DNA of 64,000 nt, taken from contig CAJOIF010000004.1 in the NCBI GenBank assembly GCA_905234765.1, forward strand, positions 1 to 64,000, given 5' to 3'. Below the pieces are notes generated by a model. That model had not been told where the DNA came from, searched no databases, and worked only from the letters and a program-made list of their open reading frames with translations. The position numbers and the translations under genes were made by a program. The DNA is from an uncultured Bacteroidales bacterium. GTDB taxonomy: Bacteria > Bacteroidota > Bacteroidia > Bacteroidales > F082. Below are positions 55,677 through 64,000 of the stretch, one piece after another. Position 1 is the first letter of the stretch, and each line of letters starts with the position of its first letter.

Positions 55677-55824
55677 CCATTGAAAAGCATGAAGGCATTA
55701 TGCAGGATTGCTGTTTTAGGATTTTGAAGACCGCTTATCCCTATAAAAGGTTAATAATTAGAAATTTAACGCGTTTTTATGGGGGTTAGAACAGCGGAGC
55801 TTTACAATTATTTTGAATCAAGGA

Positions 55825-56706
55825 ATGGCTCAATCATTGACGGAAAACGAGAACTGGACTACGGTCATCAAGCCTCGGAACAAGCTTTTCGAGGTGAATT
55901 TGAAAGAAATATGGGATTATCGCGATTTGCTGACGCTTTTCGTGAAGCGCGATATTATTACCAGTTACAAGCAAACCATCCTTGGCCCGCTGTGGTGGAT
56001 TATCCAGCCCGCCATGACGGTCATCATGTACATGGTGGTGTTTGGTGGCATCGCGGGTATTCCCACCGATGGCGTGCCGCAACCGTTGTTTTACCTTTGT
56101 GGCGTGTGCATGTGGCAGTATTTCGCCGATTGCTTGACGAAAACTTCCAACACTTTTGTCAGCAATGCGGGCATTTTCGGCAAGGTGTATTTCCCTCGCC
56201 TAATTATGCCTCTTGAGAACGTAATCAGCAATTTGGTACGATTTGGCATACAGGTAGGTCTTTTTATAGTGGTTTATGTCATTTATGCCGTTGTTGGCTA
56301 CAATATATGTCCTAATTGGTATCTGTTGCTCTTTCCATTGCTTGTGGTGATGTTGGCAGGCTTGGCTTTGGGTTTCGGCATCATCATCTCGTCCATGACG
56401 ACCAAGTACCGCGACTTGCAAGTCCTGTTTTCGTTTATCGTTTCGTTATGGATGTATGCCACGCCTATCGTGTATCCGCTCAGCCAGGTAAAAGGCAAAG
56501 TGGTGGCAGGTTTTGACTTGTACACACTCATGTGTCTCAATCCCGTCACTCCAGTGCTGGAAACCTTCAAATTCGGTGCTTTGGGTTCAGGTGAGTTCAT
56601 TGGCTGGGGCTGGCTGGCCTACAGCTTCGGTTTTATGCTCGTTTTGCTTTTCTTGGGCATCCTGATTTTCAACAAGGTGCAGAAGAGCTTTATGGATACG
56701 GTGTAA
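55825..56706 (+). CDS. wzm: ABC-2 polysaccharide export permease Wzm
   Basis: A 293-residue inner-membrane permease with six predicted helices (first near residues 60-80) and the ABC-2 signature RDIITSYKQTILGPLWWIIQP just before helix one. It exports lipid-linked O-antigen or capsule with the ATPase Wzt. The partner wzt is 1.9 kb downstream, separated by a two-gene insertion, which is abnormal because wzm and wzt usually abut. The last 34 bases are repeated after the insertion. The ATG at 55825 is preferred to the TTG at 55813. Confidence 0.92.
   Translation: MAQSLTENENWTTVIKPRNKLFEVNLKEIWDYRDLLTLFVKRDIITSYKQTILGPLWWIIQPAMTVIMYMVVFGGIAGIPTDGVPQPLFYLCGVCMWQYFADCLTKTSNTFVSNAGIFGKVYFPRLIMPLENVISNLVRFGIQVGLFIVVYVIYAVVGYNICPNWYLLLFPLLVVMLAGLALGFGIIISSMTTKYRDLQVLFSFIVSLWMYATPIVYPLSQVKGKVVAGFDLYTLMCLNPVTPVLETFKFGALGSGEFIGWGWLAYSFGFMLVLLFLGILIFNKVQKSFMDTV
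56671..56704 (+). repeat. Left copy of the duplicated wzm 3' end
   Basis: These 34 bases, encoding NKVQKSFMDTV, recur at 58564-58597 with one substitution. The two copies bracket the ATPase/TOPRIM-like module. Confidence 0.9.
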
Positions 56707-56780
56707 ATGATCAAGAGATGTTTAGCTAATGGATTATATAATCTCTGTGTTGAACAGACAGTAACTTTCATTAACAAAAA

Positions 56781-57989
56781 ATGAAACACATAATAATCAG
56801 AAACCTTGGACCTTTGGAAAGTGTTGACATTTTGCTCAGTCAGGTCAATGTTATCATAGGCCCTCAGTCTCTTGGAAAAAGTACCATCCTGAAGGTGGCC
56901 AGCTTTTGCACATGGCTAGAAAAACGTATTGAGTTGACACAGGATTATGCCCAATTCTCACAAGATGATGCCTTTATCAAGGAATTGGTTGAGTTTCATA
57001 AACTAAATGGCTACATAACGCCGACAACGTACATTGAGTATGAATCGGACTTTATGAAGTTTTCATACGACAATATCCAAAAACTGTTTCATTTTATTTG
57101 GAAGGAAAAACGTTGGGAATATAAGCGCCCCAAAGTTTCTTATATACCCTCTGAACGGAACCTCGTGGCAGCCATCCCAAACTGGTATGAGGTGAGTATG
57201 GGGCGCAACAATATCCGCTCTTTTATGACAGATTGGGAAACGGCCCGTCAGGCCACCATAGACGACCTTAATATCCTCGATCTTGATGTGAAGTACCATT
57301 ATGAGGCAGATGGGAAAAAGGACAAGGTGCAATCTCATCAATCAGGGCCATTGGATTTTACGAATACATCCAGTGGTTTGCAGTCCTTAATACCCTTGTT
57401 TGTCCACCTGAATTATTTATATACTACCCAATATCAAATTGAAAAAGACAAGAAGATAAAGGGAGATTGGGAGAATGATAATCTGTTGAAGGTCATCTAT
57501 CGTGATTTGTTTCAGTCTTCGGGACGTACAAAACCAAAAATGAAACAGATAGATGATGGCCATGGAGGAAAGGTTTCTATGCCAGTTTACATTAGGTCGA
57601 TTATAGGAAATGTTCCTCTTAGGTTTTCGGAGAAAAGGGATGCTGAAGAATGTAAATCTATTTATGAGCGCTATTTGATGACTGATCATAGTGAGGTGTT
57701 TCTGGAAGAGCCGGAAAACAATTTGTTTCCACCCACGCAAGATAGTATGGTAAAATGGTTGCTTGACAAAACCCTTGACGAACGATCCAACACATTGTTT
57801 ATTGCTACTCATAGTCCATACGTCTTGTCTTCCTTACTTGAAGAAAAAGGGATTCCACTTTCGTTGTTCCTTGTTTCTGAAAAAGGAGGCATTTCAAAGG
57901 TGAAGACCGCATCAGAAGATGAGATTCGAGGCATCTTTGACTATGGAATTGATGCCTTCTTCAATCTTGATAATCTTGTTTCGGAATGA
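56781..57989 (+). CDS. OLD/SMC-like ATPase of a putative defence module
   Basis: A 402-residue ABC-type ATPase of the AAA_15/AAA_21 or OLD class. Walker A GPQSLGKST is at residues 27-35, a family segment YIPSERNLVAAI at 121-132, the signature-like TSSGLQSL at 196-203, Walker B VFLEEPENN at 306-314 and the H-loop ATHSPYVLSS at 342-351. There are no transmembrane helices. The next gene overlaps by 4 bases and encodes a small TOPRIM-like protein. ATPase plus separate TOPRIM nuclease is the architecture of PARIS (AriA/AriB), and OLD/Gabija proteins carry the same pair in one chain. The assignment to defence is inference. The base composition is more AT-rich than that of wzm. Confidence 0.8.
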   Translation: MKHIIIRNLGPLESVDILLSQVNVIIGPQSLGKSTILKVASFCTWLEKRIELTQDYAQFSQDDAFIKELVEFHKLNGYITPTTYIEYESDFMKFSYDNIQKLFHFIWKEKRWEYKRPKVSYIPSERNLVAAIPNWYEVSMGRNNIRSFMTDWETARQATIDDLNILDLDVKYHYEADGKKDKVQSHQSGPLDFTNTSSGLQSLIPLFVHLNYLYTTQYQIEKDKKIKGDWENDNLLKVIYRDLFQSSGRTKPKMKQIDDGHGGKVSMPVYIRSIIGNVPLRFSEKRDAEECKSIYERYLMTDHSEVFLEEPENNLFPPTQDSMVKWLLDKTLDERSNTLFIATHSPYVLSSLLEEKGIPLSLFLVSEKGGISKVKTASEDEIRGIFDYGIDAFFNLDNLVSE

Positions 57990-58531
57990 AGTTGGATTAT
58001 TTGCACATCATCCCAGAGTGTTATGCGGATACCAATCTGATACAGACGCTATTGAAGATAAAAGGTGTCAATCATCAGAAGTCATGTGGACAGGTGACGA
58101 ATGAGATGAAAAAGCACTTTCAAGATGACTTTGCCGTTGGGGTGATTGATTTGGACAAAGACCAGTCAAAATATGCAGAAGAGTGTGAAACGATAGCATC
58201 GTCTAATGAGTTTTCTGTATGCAGACATCCTGATAGCAACCATTATCTCGTCAAGATTCACAATATATTGGAGAATTTCATAATTAATTGTGCCAAAGAG
58301 ACGGGTGTTGACCTTTCGGAATTAGGCATGCCTCTTGAAAAGGAGGCGCTTATGAAACGTACGAAGAAGCAAGAAGCCAAGAATGACCCGCAATTGGCAA
58401 ATCTCTTCAAGCAGTTGTCGTTTTCCACGGAAATGTCACTTTTAAAAGAGGTTATGGACTTTCTTTGCACAAAAAAGTATAACGTAAGGGATGAAGAACT
58501 TGTTTCGATTTTTCAGAAACATGGTTTTTGA
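57986..58531 (+). CDS. Small TOPRIM-like partner of the ATPase
   Basis: A 181-residue protein of no family I can name firmly. Its start LHIIPECYADTNLI has Glu11 and Asp15 placed as in the first TOPRIM motif, and GVIDLDKDQ has a DxD (Asp55, Asp57) as in the second. The segment SNHYLVKIHNILENFI may be a further active-site or binding helix. It overlaps the ATPase gene by 4 bases (ATGA), so the two are made together. It is shorter than AriB (DUF4435) and than OLD TOPRIM parts, so a compact or divergent nuclease is the best guess; activity is unproven. Confidence 0.65.
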   Translation: MKLDYLHIIPECYADTNLIQTLLKIKGVNHQKSCGQVTNEMKKHFQDDFAVGVIDLDKDQSKYAEECETIASSNEFSVCRHPDSNHYLVKIHNILENFIINCAKETGVDLSELGMPLEKEALMKRTKKQEAKNDPQLANLFKQLSFSTEMSLLKEVMDFLCTKKYNVRDEELVSIFQKHGF

Positions 58532-58541
58532 TGGAAGAGGG

Positions 58542-58557
58542 ATAGCATGCATGCTAT
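58542..58557. repeat. Perfect 16-base palindrome at the right edge of the insertion
   Basis: ATAGCATGCATGCTAT reads the same on both strands. It lies 10 bases after the TOPRIM-like stop and 6 bases before the right copy of the wzm end, where a recombinase site would be expected. Confidence 0.8.
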
Positions 58558-58563
58558 AATGTT

Positions 58564-58597
58564 AACAAGGCGCAGAAGAGCTTTATGGATACGGTGT
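58564..58597 (+). repeat. Right copy of the duplicated wzm 3' end
   Basis: 34 bases matching 56671-56704 with one change, still in the wzm frame (NKAQKSFMDTV) and ending in TGA instead of TAA. It has no start codon and marks the original junction with wzt. Confidence 0.9.
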
Positions 58598-58643: not shown

Positions 58644-59894
58644 ATGTCAACAGCAATAGAATTCGACAATATCAGCAAGTTATATCGGTTGGGCTTGGTC
58701 TCGACTGGCACTTTGGCCCACGATTTGAAACGTTGGTGGACCATGAACATCCAAGGCAAGGAAGACCCTTATTTGAAAATTGGTGAGACCAACGATCGCT
58801 CCACCAAAGGCGACAGCGACTATGTGTGGGCCTTGAAGGACATCGACTTCAAGGTGGAACAAGGCGACGTGGTGGGCATCATCGGCAAGAACGGGGCAGG
58901 AAAGAGTACTTTACTGAAAATCCTATCTAAAGTAACGGGTCCGACCACTGGAACGATTAAAGCCAGAGGTCGCATAGGTTCCTTGTTGGAGGTGGGAACG
59001 GGCTTTCATCCGGAGATGACTGGCCGCGAGAACATCTACCTCAATGGTGCCATCCTTGGCATGACCAAGCCAGAGATTACCCGAAAGCTTGACGAGATTG
59101 TTAGTTTTAGCGGTTGCGAGCGTTATATTGACACGCCCGTAAAGCGTTACAGTAGCGGCATGATGGTGCGACTTGGCTTCGCCGTCGCCGCCCACCTCGA
59201 TCCTGAAATCCTCGTTGTGGATGAAGTTCTCGCCGTCGGCGACGCTGAGTTCCAAAAGAAAGCCATCGGCAAGATGCAGGATGTGAGTAAGGGTGAGGGG
59301 AGGACGGTTTTGTTTGTGAGTCATAATATGTCTGCTGTTAAAAGCTTATGTCATACAGGTATTCTTCTCGACAACGGTAGAATATCTCATCAAGGTAATA
59401 TCCATGAAATCGTAACCAGATACCTTAGTGAAAACGGAAAAACAAAACCCATAAGACTAGGTAACGGAAAGATGCAATTCAGTAGCTATTCTATTGACAA
59501 CACATCAATTGAAACAGGCGATGACTTGAATATTTCGTTTACATTCATCATCAATCAACCAGTAGACATTCCTCTTATCAACATCGTTTTTTACGACACA
59601 ATAGGAAACCGAATAACTGAATGTAGCTGTTTAGATGACGCATCATTTCAAATTCGTTCGCTTAAGTTGAATACTGAATACTCTGTTAATTGCTTGATAA
59701 AAAACATTAATTTTCTACCCGGCGAATACCGAATAAACCTATGGGCAGGACGTGGAGGTGAAAATTACGACTGGATAACCCAATGTATGAGCTTTAATGT
59801 TATTCAAGGTAGAAAATTCATAAATCGGACATCCGAGTTCCCCAAAGAAGCCCAGATGATTCTCCAATCGGAATGGCATCAGAACGAATTCTAA
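58644..59894 (+). CDS. wzt: O-antigen/capsule export ATPase Wzt with C-terminal binding domain
   Basis: A 416-residue ABC ATPase. Walker A GKNGAGKST lies near residue 80, the signature YSSGMMVRLGFA near 173, Walker B ILVVDEVLAVGD and the H-loop FVSHNMSAV near 226. Residues from about 245 form a beta-rich Wzt carbohydrate-binding domain (for example NISFTFIINQPVDIPLI), which reads the end of the polymer before export. The nucleotide-binding half is GC-rich, but the C-terminal half from about 59330 is AT-rich like the genes after it, suggesting a domain swap along with the serotype genes. Confidence 0.9.
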   Translation: MSTAIEFDNISKLYRLGLVSTGTLAHDLKRWWTMNIQGKEDPYLKIGETNDRSTKGDSDYVWALKDIDFKVEQGDVVGIIGKNGAGKSTLLKILSKVTGPTTGTIKARGRIGSLLEVGTGFHPEMTGRENIYLNGAILGMTKPEITRKLDEIVSFSGCERYIDTPVKRYSSGMMVRLGFAVAAHLDPEILVVDEVLAVGDAEFQKKAIGKMQDVSKGEGRTVLFVSHNMSAVKSLCHTGILLDNGRISHQGNIHEIVTRYLSENGKTKPIRLGNGKMQFSSYSIDNTSIETGDDLNISFTFIINQPVDIPLINIVFYDTIGNRITECSCLDDASFQIRSLKLNTEYSVNCLIKNINFLPGEYRINLWAGRGGENYDWITQCMSFNVIQGRKFINRTSEFPKEAQMILQSEWHQNEF

Positions 59895-59910: not shown

Positions 59911-61392
59911 ATGACAATTAATGCGCTTGATCTCTTTCTGAAGCAAAAAAGGTTTGACCTAATTTTCAAGTATATATACGTGAAGAGTCCTTCTTCATTT
60001 ACAAAGAATGCATACCTTGAAAGCATCCGCGCATTCAACAACTTTTCCGAAAAATCCAGCAACGGGACAGACAAAGATTCTCCTGAAAACTTTATTACCA
60101 TTTTTGATAATCTAATAAATTCCATCCAAAACGAGGGATTCAAAACAGAGCAAAATGCAATCCCCATAGGAAGAAGCGGGGAAATAATTGACGGAGCTCA
60201 TAGGTTGGCTATTTGTGCAAATTTCGGTTGCAATATAGAAACAGAACCCACTAATCTCGATGCATTATGGGATTATCAATTTTTCCGTAACAAAGGGATG
60301 GATGAAAAGGTTATGGACTACGGAGCGCTAGAATATGTTAAACTCAATCCCCTTGCATACATTGTCAACTTGCAGCCAGTAACCACAATGGACAATGACG
60401 GTAAGGTTCTTGACATATTAAATAGCCATGGATTTGTCTACTACAAAAAAAATTGTTGGATCTCTTTTAATGGACTCGTCAATTTTAAGAAAATATGCTA
60501 TGGTTCCTTCTGGGAAAAGGCACCTTGGATAGGCTCATCAGAGGATGGGTTCTTGGGGGCTCAGGGCCATGCGAACCATTCCATGGGTATAAATCCAATG
60601 CGAGTTTTCGTATTTGTTTGTGAAAACCTCGGGGAAGTACAAAAAGCAAAAAAAGAAATCCGAGACATCTATGGAATAGGCAATTATAGCGTACATATCA
60701 ATGACACTCATGAGGAAGCAATTTGTTTGGCAGAAAACTATTTCAATGCCAATACTCTTTTCCAATTAAATACTCGTCCATTTCATCTCTATGACGAAGT
60801 GTTTGAAAATCATATTGAAGTCCTAAAAAAAGAGTGTTTAAATAGAAAAATTGACATATATAGCGTTTGTGGAGCAGGAAGCACTCCTATGAACGTTTTC
60901 CAAATTAGACATAGTCAAGATTTAGATTACTTGACAATGGATGAGGATGTTTTGCCAGATAACGAAATAATCTCTTCTCATAACAAATACGAAAGAAACT
61001 ATCCTCATCCCATCACAGAAATTATTACTAACCCATCATTTCATATGTACTATAACGGGGTAAAGTTTATTTCTCTTGACACTCTTTACGCCATGAAAAA
61101 GTATAGAAGTGAAATCCCCAAAGATTATTTAGATTGTAAGAAAATCCGAACATTAACATTTTACAGGAAGATACTTGATACTATTCGGCAAGAGCAAATA
61201 TGTAAAAAGGCGGGTACAAAAAAGCAAGGCAAAATTGTTAAATACTTATATAAATATATAATAAATAATAAATATGGAGATGTCTCAATAAAAGCATTTA
61301 TACTAAAAAAATGGCGTACCCTGAAGAGGAAGTGCCCCATTGTAGCAAAGACGAATACGCAAATAAAGAAGATATGGTATTGCAAAAAATAA
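59911..61392 (+). CDS. Two-domain protein with ParB-like and nucleotidyltransferase-like motifs
   Basis: A 493-residue protein not recognised as a named family. Residues 82-110 contain IGRSGEIIDGAHRLAIC, resembling the DGxHR loop of ParB/sulfiredoxin folds. Residues about 318-345 (CGAGSTPMNVF then HSQDLDYL) resemble the GS...DxD core of nucleotidyltransferases, and ISLDTLYAMKKYRS followed by PKDYLDCKKI matches their typical helical tail. A basic C-terminus (from about 425) may bind membrane. Its place in a polysaccharide locus suggests a sugar- or phosphate-modifying enzyme. It starts 16 bases after wzt, overlaps the next gene, and is AT-rich. Confidence 0.6.
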   Translation: MTINALDLFLKQKRFDLIFKYIYVKSPSSFTKNAYLESIRAFNNFSEKSSNGTDKDSPENFITIFDNLINSIQNEGFKTEQNAIPIGRSGEIIDGAHRLAICANFGCNIETEPTNLDALWDYQFFRNKGMDEKVMDYGALEYVKLNPLAYIVNLQPVTTMDNDGKVLDILNSHGFVYYKKNCWISFNGLVNFKKICYGSFWEKAPWIGSSEDGFLGAQGHANHSMGINPMRVFVFVCENLGEVQKAKKEIRDIYGIGNYSVHINDTHEEAICLAENYFNANTLFQLNTRPFHLYDEVFENHIEVLKKECLNRKIDIYSVCGAGSTPMNVFQIRHSQDLDYLTMDEDVLPDNEIISSHNKYERNYPHPITEIITNPSFHMYYNGVKFISLDTLYAMKKYRSEIPKDYLDCKKIRTLTFYRKILDTIRQEQICKKAGTKKQGKIVKYLYKYIINNKYGDVSIKAFILKKWRTLKRKCPIVAKTNTQIKKIWYCKK

Positions 61393-63187: not shown

Positions 63188-64000
63188 ATGAAATACCCAA
63201 TCGGCATACAGAATTTTGAAAAAATTCGCGAAGAAGAGTTTGTTTATGTGGACAAGACGGCATTGATATATCGGCTTGTGAGCGAGGGTTCATACTACTT
63301 CCTTTCTCGTCCACGGCGATTCGGCAAAAGTTTGCTGCTGTCCACCCTTGAAGCCTATTTTCAAGGGAAGAAAGAGTTGTTTGAAGGATTGGCCATTAGT
63401 AAGCTGGAAAAAGCTTGGAAAAGCTATCCCATACTCCATTTGGACCTGAACAGCCGTGAATATAAGGATGAGTCCTCATTAGAAGCCGAGCTGAACCGCC
63501 ACTTGGAACAATGGGAAAAGCTCTACGGCGATGAGTTCCGCATGAGAGCCGCCGAGGAACGCTTCTTGCAGGTTATCGACAAGGCATACGAGAAGACGGG
63601 GAAACAGGTAGTCATCTTGGTCGACGAATACGACAAACCAATGCTGCAGGCCATTGACAACAAAAAGTTGCAGGATGCCTACCGCAGCAAGCTGAAAGCT
63701 TTCTACTCGGTGCTGAAAACCCAAGATGCCAAGATACGATTCGCCTTCCTGACGGGTGTCACGAAGTTCGGCAAGGTGAGCGTATTCAGCGACCTGAACC
63801 ACCTTACTGACATATCCATGCTGCCTCAGTTCGTTGATATCTGTGGCGTTTCTGAAAAAGAACTGCACGAATATTTTGATGCCAGTGTGGAGCAACTTGC
63901 CGAAGCCAACAACATGAGCAAAGAAGCGTGTTACGAAAAACTGAGAATAGACTTTGATGGTTACCACTTCTACCCCGATACTCAAGGGATATACAATCCT
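63188..64000 (+). CDS. Orphan AAA-ATPase (DUF1703-type), cut at the window end
   Basis: 271 codons of an open frame starting MKYPIGIQNFEKIREEEF and still open at 64000. The family start YPIGIQNFEKIREE, VYVDKT, Walker A RPRRFGKSLLLSTLEAYF (from residue 41) and Walker B VVILVDEYDKPM identify the Bacteroidetes AAA-ATPase-like family whose C-terminal domain (DUF1703, PD-(D/E)XK type) would lie beyond the edge. The function of these multi-copy genes is unknown. It stands alone after the polysaccharide genes. Confidence 0.88.
   Translation, partial: MKYPIGIQNFEKIREEEFVYVDKTALIYRLVSEGSYYFLSRPRRFGKSLLLSTLEAYFQGKKELFEGLAISKLEKAWKSYPILHLDLNSREYKDESSLEAELNRHLEQWEKLYGDEFRMRAAEERFLQVIDKAYEKTGKQVVILVDEYDKPMLQAIDNKKLQDAYRSKLKAFYSVLKTQDAKIRFAFLTGVTKFGKVSVFSDLNHLTDISMLPQFVDICGVSEKELHEYFDASVEQLAEANNMSKEACYEKLRIDFDGYHFYPDTQGIYNP

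Follow-up and report, generated by a model that had tools for sequence, protein, structure and literature searches.

A two-gene cassette of an OLD-type ATPase and a small TOPRIM-like protein between wzm and wzt of a Bacteroidales bacterium: a candidate PARIS-like defence variant

Results and discussion

The 64,000-nucleotide stretch of DNA analysed here (hereafter the window; positions 1 to 64,000 of contig CAJOIF010000004.1, assembly GCA_905234765.1, from an uncultured Bacteroidales bacterium) carries two adjacent genes between the permease gene wzm and the ATPase gene wzt of one ATP-binding cassette (ABC) exporter. Gene A codes for an ATPase of the OLD type and gene B for a small TOPRIM-like protein. 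As suggested by our comparative analysis, A and B probably constitute a two-gene anti-phage system of the abortive-infection type, with a split OLD-family design that would work like PARIS, a TOPRIM effector family of its own and a target that is slightly more likely to be DNA; the cassette would travel as a unit and would have been inserted here at the 3' end of wzm. We hold this reading with somewhat better than even confidence.

An intact ATPase and a TOPRIM-like partner

Comparison of A with Pfam revealed matches above the curated cut-offs to AAA_15 (E 1.3e-13, 51.7 bits, cut-off 32.1) and AAA_21 (E 7e-11, 43.2 bits, cut-off 27). The best PADLOC model was PDC-M29A, for which PADLOC supplies no cut-off here (E 2.3e-53, 179.9 bits; residues 1-352 of A aligned to positions 1-321 of 410 of the model), followed by AriA at 7.3e-16 and 57 bits. 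The protein carries a Walker A motif (GPQSLGKST), a signature-like SSGLQSL, a Walker B motif (FLEEPE) and a His switch (ATHSPY), and the Walker A motif, SSGLQSL, LEEPE and THSPY are invariant or nearly so among 20 aligned homologues. The AlphaFold2 model of A (predicted local distance difference test score 83.8) had its best fold matches in PtuA of retrons and Septu and in SMC and Rad50 heads. Judged by family matches, kept motifs and modelled fold, A is an intact OLD/Rad50-type ATPase.

No family of Pfam, PADLOC, NCBIfam or PHROGs was matched by B. Neither a PADLOC family nor DUF4435 (PF14491) was retrieved at E values up to 10, no HNH or other Pfam domain was detected at cut-off, and the sequence profile of B found nothing among PDB chains at E up to 10. 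Plain Foldseek searches against PDB and against viral models gave nothing at E <= 0.001. The predicted fold of B found its best matches in the TOPRIM domains of OLD and Gabija, with AriB at rank 15; by this prediction B is TOPRIM-like, of the OLD type, with a TOPRIM core, the catalytic Glu and DxD. The preliminary description of this DNA had proposed such a fold, as opposed to one unrelated to TOPRIM, and the modelling bears it out.

The residues on which that proposal was built are real features of the family, E11, D15, D55 and D57 being identical in all 77 B proteins. Position 96, which falls in the helix that first follows the strands, is acidic throughout (Glu in 40 and Asp in 37 of 77), and K127 is present in 75 of the 75 proteins with a letter at that position. 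The B loci were retrieved with the peptide pattern PEC[YF][VA]DTN, which selects for conservation of residues 10-17, so that the constancy of E11 and D15 is partly selected, and D55, D57, E/D96 and K127 provide the independent evidence. The B protein of locus L092, reached through its ATPase instead, also has E, D and DxD. In OLD of B. pseudomallei, E400, D455 and D457 are described as serving metal A, E404, T506 and E508 metal B, and K562 as catalytic (PMC6755086). An OLD-like two-metal active site comprising E11, D15, D55, D57, E/D96 and K127 is predicted for B, E/D96 and K127 having been equated with E508 and K562 by order and secondary structure rather than by superposed coordinates. Outside both the standard TOPRIM set and the retrieval pattern, H30, C34 and F49 do not vary among the 77 proteins and H81 is found in 74; the three invariant residues perhaps contact the substrate or the ATPase.

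Linkage and spread of the pair

A genome scan with the B pattern yielded 80 loci, 79 from Bacteroidota (by titles) and one from Desulfobacterales. All 76 testable sources (75 loci and the window) have A immediately before B and on its strand, a count that leaves out 4 loci without a profile-scorable B gene and 1 at a contig edge. A-type ATPases are rare and patchy among the Bacteroidia genomes sampled: at 1e-20 the A profile detected 8 of 395, 2 of them with B (one being the centre of the sample) and 6 with PDC-M29B-type partners. B was found in no plasmid and in none of 73 candidate stretches of IMG/VR.

A related pair is encoded by gp15-gp16 of Geoglobus ahangari pleomorphic virus 1 (BK065157.1, L101:1653-3807), in which, as in the window, an ATPase is followed by a B homologue, with a 1-base overlap. 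The homologue is 28% identical over 63% of the query (E 5e-5; hhalign probability 98.2). Unlike the window, the carrier is an archaeal virus, its B protein measures 149 residues, winged-helix regulators stand on both sides, and the ATPase belongs with a lineage of short ATPases described below. The row of a winged-helix regulator, an ATPase, a B homologue and a second winged-helix regulator in this archaeal pleolipovirus represents a virus-borne version of the cassette. At L033:8579-8986, L062:8589-8996, L044:8676-8957 and L058:8392-8865, a small helix-turn-helix-like gene, recognised by eye, lies just upstream on the same strand; these genes, possible regulators, belong to short-ATPase loci and are absent from the window.

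Comparison with known ATPase-nuclease systems

A split architecture is already known among OLD proteins, PARIS having been described as class 4 OLD (PMC10568477). Like A and B, the PARIS proteins AriA and AriB are encoded by adjacent genes, an OLD-type ATPase followed by a TOPRIM protein, with an E...D / DxD metal site and E-x-Y-x-D at the first glutamate. The two-gene detection rule for PARIS, as given in PMC9122126, combines an AAA_15 or AAA_21 ATPase with a partner that scores over 27 bits against DUF4435. A provides such an ATPase, whereas B lacks DUF4435 and has 181 residues, compared with 332-353 in the four DUF4435 proteins examined. Profile comparison of B with DUF4435 proteins aligned only the E-x-Y-x-D motif (E-C-Y-A-D on E-S-Y-D-D), which was not significant; the positive control, two halves of the B alignment, reached a probability of 100.

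The pair might be a true member of PARIS whose AriB has diverged beyond recognition, in keeping with the gene order, the separate genes, the type of ATPase, the AriA match of A, the place of AriB among the fold matches of B and the motif set on its counterpart in that sole alignment. We consider this unlikely in view of the missing DUF4435, of the far better score of A against PDC-M29A than against AriA (180 versus 57 bits) and of X. brevis (G001), which possesses both an A-B pair and a separate DUF4435 gene. Hence, of the kinship with PARIS and OLD put forward in the preliminary description, membership of PARIS is not supported, and what stands is a compact pair of an OLD-like ATPase and a TOPRIM-like protein, unnamed in the four libraries searched, which is best read as working like PARIS or OLD.

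Class 2 OLD and GajA of Gabija supply the best fold matches of B and share with it a TOPRIM and helical domain and the active-site set of E, E/D(+4), DxD, E and K. They differ from the window's pair in that ATPase and TOPRIM are joined in one chain, with a UvrD-like helicase as partner (PMC12796447), and are here divided between two. The window shows neither the ATPase-TOPRIM fusion nor the GajB helicase of Gabija, its two separate ORFs (open reading frames) having wzm and wzt as neighbours. The PtuA-PtuB pairs of Septu and retrons are likewise distinct: PtuB is an HNH nuclease, whereas B has a TOPRIM-like predicted fold and no HNH match, and the neighbours are wzm and wzt, with no reverse transcriptase.

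Possible exchange of partners between ATPases and nucleases

PDC-M29, a two-gene candidate system of PADLOC, has an ATPase homologous to A over most of its length and a small gene directly downstream. A answers to its first component, PDC-M29A, and B does not answer to the second: hhalign of B against nine PDC-M29B proteins returned a probability of 0.3. PDC-M29B was present in 14 of 295 Bacteroidia genomes and, in the loci read, directly followed an OLD-type ATPase; most of its proteins have 160-200 residues (one has 126) and carry an RCD...VELK pattern. By this motif only, PDC-M29B appears PD-(D/E)XK-like, Pfam having named none of three tested proteins at cut-off.

In the ATPase tree, 43 long TOPRIM-linked ATPases (window included) group with 10 PD-(D/E)XK-linked ones, and 31 short TOPRIM-linked ATPases together with that of the Geoglobus virus are set apart by a branch of length 2.87 and support 100; the long group itself has a support of only 59. 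Between long and short pairs the mean identity is 20% in A (15-25%) and 40% in B, whereas pairs inside one group with that same identity in B average 41-42% in A, with no value under 31.7%. Two readings fit this mismatch, an exchange of B between ATPase lineages or a burst of divergence in A. Since parsimony on the tree needs one partner change only, the tree alone is no proof of repeated exchange, and the argument rests on the mismatch between A and B identities. The effector looks swappable, as B partners two ATPase lineages about 20% identical and the window's lineage is kin to PD-(D/E)XK-linked ATPases.

These data also bear on the view that the pair is a PDC-M29 variant, to be filed there as part of a single ATPase family whose nucleases can be interchanged. 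The strong PDC-M29A match of A, the PDC-M29B-type genes that follow ATPases of the same large clade and the tree, which joins the window's ATPases with those and not with the B-sharing short ATPases (branch support 100), make this a possibility to be taken seriously, although we doubt it: B shows no match to PDC-M29B, whose motif is of the PD-(D/E)XK and not of the TOPRIM kind. Such a filing is more a question of naming than a rival mechanism. The pair stands outside PARIS by the DUF4435 rule and outside PDC-M29 by its second gene, and it is best read as an unnamed PARIS-like (split OLD) defence variant. In the literature searched, which included few subscription papers, neither a mention of PDC-M29 nor a two-gene Toprim/ATPase anti-phage system of Bacteroides was found.

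Flanking repeats and proposed insertion at gene ends

As had been stated in the preliminary description, the genes for the 402-residue ATPase and the 181-residue protein overlap by 4 bases between the permease and the ATPase gene; the ORF listing, with both genes on the + strand, and the Pfam domains agree with it (Table 1). Its further assumption that these two exporter genes normally abut was borne out by the 30 best Bacteroidia loci retrieved with the window's permease, which was matched in 139 of 247 genomes. The Wzt gene lay within the fetched flank in 22 of the 30 loci and was the immediately next gene in 21 of those 22; A and B therefore interrupt the usual neighbourhood.

Table 1. Features of the wzm-wzt region of the window
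Feature	Coordinates	Strand	Characteristics
wzm-like ABC-2 permease gene	55813..56706	+	PF01061 9.5e-14; upstream host gene, its 3' end being the proposed insertion site
Direct repeat, left copy, 34 bp	56671..56704	+	Codes NKVQKSFMDTV, the Wzm C-terminus; 33/34 identical to 58564-58597 (97.06%, E 2.6e-10)
Gene A, OLD/Rad50-type ABC ATPase, 402 aa (P0001)	56781..57989	+	AAA_15/AAA_21; PDC-M29A 2.3e-53; motifs; predicted fold
Gene B, small TOPRIM nuclease-like protein, 181 aa (P0002)	57986..58531	+	Predicted active site E11, D15, D55, D57, E96, K127
Direct repeat, right copy	58564..58597	+	Codes NKAQKSFMDTV, then TGA stop
wzt-like ABC ATPase gene with Wzt C-terminal domain	58644..59894	+	PF00005 1.1e-21, PF14524 1.1e-11; downstream host gene, about 45 bp past the right repeat

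The pair is framed by a direct repeat: 34 of the last 36 bp of wzm are copied downstream of B, with one mismatch between the copies, and the stretch between them contains A and B alone. This stretch is exactly the span 56705-58563 that the preliminary description had delimited, the repeats having escaped mention there. The right copy is probably the original wzm end before insertion. Comparable arrangements were found elsewhere. The 3' end of an HU-type gene (PF18291) recurs in L032 as a 199-bp copy (89%), with A and B alone between copy and original; L071 has a 199-bp repeat (94%) and L007 one of 62 bp (89%). In L010, L014 and L015 a gene 3' end, probably that of a glutamate dehydrogenase, is repeated over 121-122 bp, with an additional 261-residue gene between the copies (the ORFs between repeats were viewed for L010 and L014).

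The frequency of such repeats was compared between A-B pairs and control gene pairs from the same loci by BLAST at 1e-8 within 2 kb on both sides, a limit picked after earlier repeat results had been seen. Repeats were detected around 12 of 71 A-B pairs versus 3 of 187 control pairs (Fisher p 2e-5), and those overlapping a gene 3' end numbered 7 versus 1 (p 6e-4), the 7 corresponding to about 5 independent events because L010, L014 and L015 are one lineage. Within 600 bp the counts were 6 of 71 versus 2 of 186 (p 0.006), and 3 versus 1 at gene ends (p 0.065); ungapped matches with a score of at least 30 within 500 bp occurred at 6 of 73 pairs and 2 of 169 controls. The repeats of L018 and L037, of which more copies lie in the vicinity, are possibly of the dispersed kind; they were kept in the counts but not used as examples.

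Inspection by eye of the ORFs enclosed by repeats, with Pfam for two of them, revealed no integrase. The joined flanks of L014 aligned in one piece and full length in 3 of 45 genomes of the genus (G420, G422 and G444; 68-70% identity), two more genomes aligned over 1-492 and 1-486 of 559, and most others matched the gene end only. The genome of L032 has another locus that matches over the junction at 82%, which is a paralogous rather than the identical site. An empty wzm-wzt site was not seen in a close relative of the window; the strict aroB search (1e-110) of 395 Bacteroidia genomes found no close genome. Insertion by homologous recombination at the gene end and by an integrase acting from elsewhere are both possible; the differing lengths and sequences of the repeats from site to site argue against one fixed attachment site.

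A toxin-antitoxin or selfish maintenance module that is not primarily anti-phage would also suit the overlap of the genes, the variation in site, the repeats on either side and the archaeal virus as carrier. By analogy only, PARIS speaks against such a module, deletion of either of its genes having been reported as non-toxic and as abolishing defence, from which its authors argued against a toxin-antitoxin nature (PMC9122126). We regard this explanation as improbable and retain a probable anti-phage role for A and B.

Our observations can be drawn together, tentatively and with the odds rather against it, in a broader picture: an integrase-less, self-contained defence cassette of about 1.9 kb may repeatedly enter genomes at gene 3' ends, the protein genes concerned being unrelated, and a copy of the gene end (34-199 bp) on its other side would keep the host gene whole; its TOPRIM effector may also have changed hands among unrelated OLD-type ATPases, including a clade related to ATPases with a PD-(D/E)XK effector. 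No description of a defence unit that combines such an insertion mode with an exchangeable effector was found in a limited search of the literature.

The GC content of A (0.400) and B (0.392) is below that of wzm (0.470) and wzt (0.445), but it was rejected as non-diagnostic of a recent acquisition, since downstream genes are equally low (0.353 and 0.375). A scan for promoters and terminators gave counts within about one standard deviation of shuffled sequence. Further downstream, positions 59911-61392 code for a 493-residue protein of the polysaccharide locus with no Pfam match above cut-off and with a DGAHRLA stretch, which we take to resemble ParB/sulfiredoxin-type motifs; the gene at 63188-64000, running off the window end, belongs to the AAA-ATPase_like family PF09820 (1.8e-76).

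Genomic neighbourhood

The neighbourhood of the pair was surveyed with 124 immediate neighbours out of 245 genes within two places, genes shorter than 90 residues, those truncated at a contig end and those with a match to the A or B profile being left out; 115 genes drawn at random from 212 located more than 6 kb away served as distant control. The immediate neighbours are diverse, no Pfam family occurring more than 3 times. PADLOC at 1e-15 matched 43 families among the near neighbours versus 12 among the distant genes (families, not proteins), a modest defence-island context. Among the named examples, PDC-M56A directly follows B in L037, L053 has a mad3-like protein, L076 a type I restriction enzyme and L060 a BrxHI/SngC-like helicase. 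Of 20 neighbours scanned singly, 6 matched PADLOC at 1e-15 and 14 matched nothing, figures that are not a rate, the 20 having been hand-picked, mostly for size.

Other two-gene units were observed beside the pair. In L037 (4955-6600), the PDC-M56A ATPase and a 166-residue protein form a second unit directly after A-B, again an ATPase followed by a small gene. At L055:2645-4395 and L009:6558-8357, less than 7 kb from A-B pairs, other OLD-type ATPases precede small PD-(D/E)XK-like or uncharacterised proteins, the ATPase and PD-(D/E)XK-like gene of L055 lying about 4 to 6 kb from the pair; L055 and L009 hint at clusters of such units.

The position of A and B between wzm and wzt, in the same direction, raises the question of whether they belong to the polysaccharide locus and aid capsule or O-antigen export or its regulation. 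Using 14 polysaccharide-type seed proteins, we compared 58 pair loci having at least 9 kb of total flank with 40 control regions of other Bacteroidia. At least two polysaccharide-type genes within 8 kb were found in 6 of 58 pair loci versus 0 of 40 controls (Fisher p 0.04); these six (the window, L007, L016, L019, L055 and L067) have at least three each, and L003 and L032, whose flanks are shorter, have two such genes apiece. The excess is weakened by the fact that 3 of the six supplied seeds (3 of 55 without them), and with at least one such gene as threshold the difference is gone (8 of 58 versus 4 of 40). A fixed polysaccharide function was rejected, as the remaining 52 of the 58 loci contain at most one such gene within 8 kb, the neighbours are diverse, relatives of the window's own flanking genes appear in only 7 of 80 loci, and the repeat marks the cassette as an insert. 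This explanation is largely refuted, and we give it hardly any weight. The preliminary description had the pair use the polysaccharide locus as its landing site, as distinct from being a fixed part of such operons. The latter point is upheld by the other genomes; the former holds for the clusters around a minority of pairs, most sites lying elsewhere. Polysaccharide loci recombine often, and they may be a favoured insertion site.

Proposed mode of action and implications

In the split OLD design, as pieced together from PARIS and Gabija, an ATP-dependent ATPase would hold a TOPRIM effector and free it on infection (PMC9122126, PMC12796447, PMC12409363). Following this model, A would dimerise through its ABC heads in the ATP state, bind B and keep it inactive. 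A product of the phage, or some change that the phage causes, would alter the nucleotide state of A, whereupon B would be released or opened and its two-metal TOPRIM site would cut nucleic acid, so that growth stops. Since B comes closest in fold to the DNA nucleases OLD and GajA, DNA is the slightly favoured substrate, with tRNA as its rival by analogy with AriB. The cassette would move as a unit and, at the present locus, would have been inserted at the wzm 3' end, the 34-bp copy of which now flanks it.

Pairs of an ATPase and a nuclease are an expanding class of bacterial immunity, to which B would add a TOPRIM effector family unnamed in Pfam, PADLOC, NCBIfam and PHROGs, together with the exact residues to mutate. 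Two kinds of modularity appear to meet here, a nuclease common to two ATPase lineages of about 20% identity and an ATPase clade with relatives that employ a different nuclease, and the idea of a sensor ATPase with an exchangeable nuclease could be tested through partner swaps. Furthermore, the repeats at gene ends may offer a handle on the movement of small defence cassettes without an integrase of their own.

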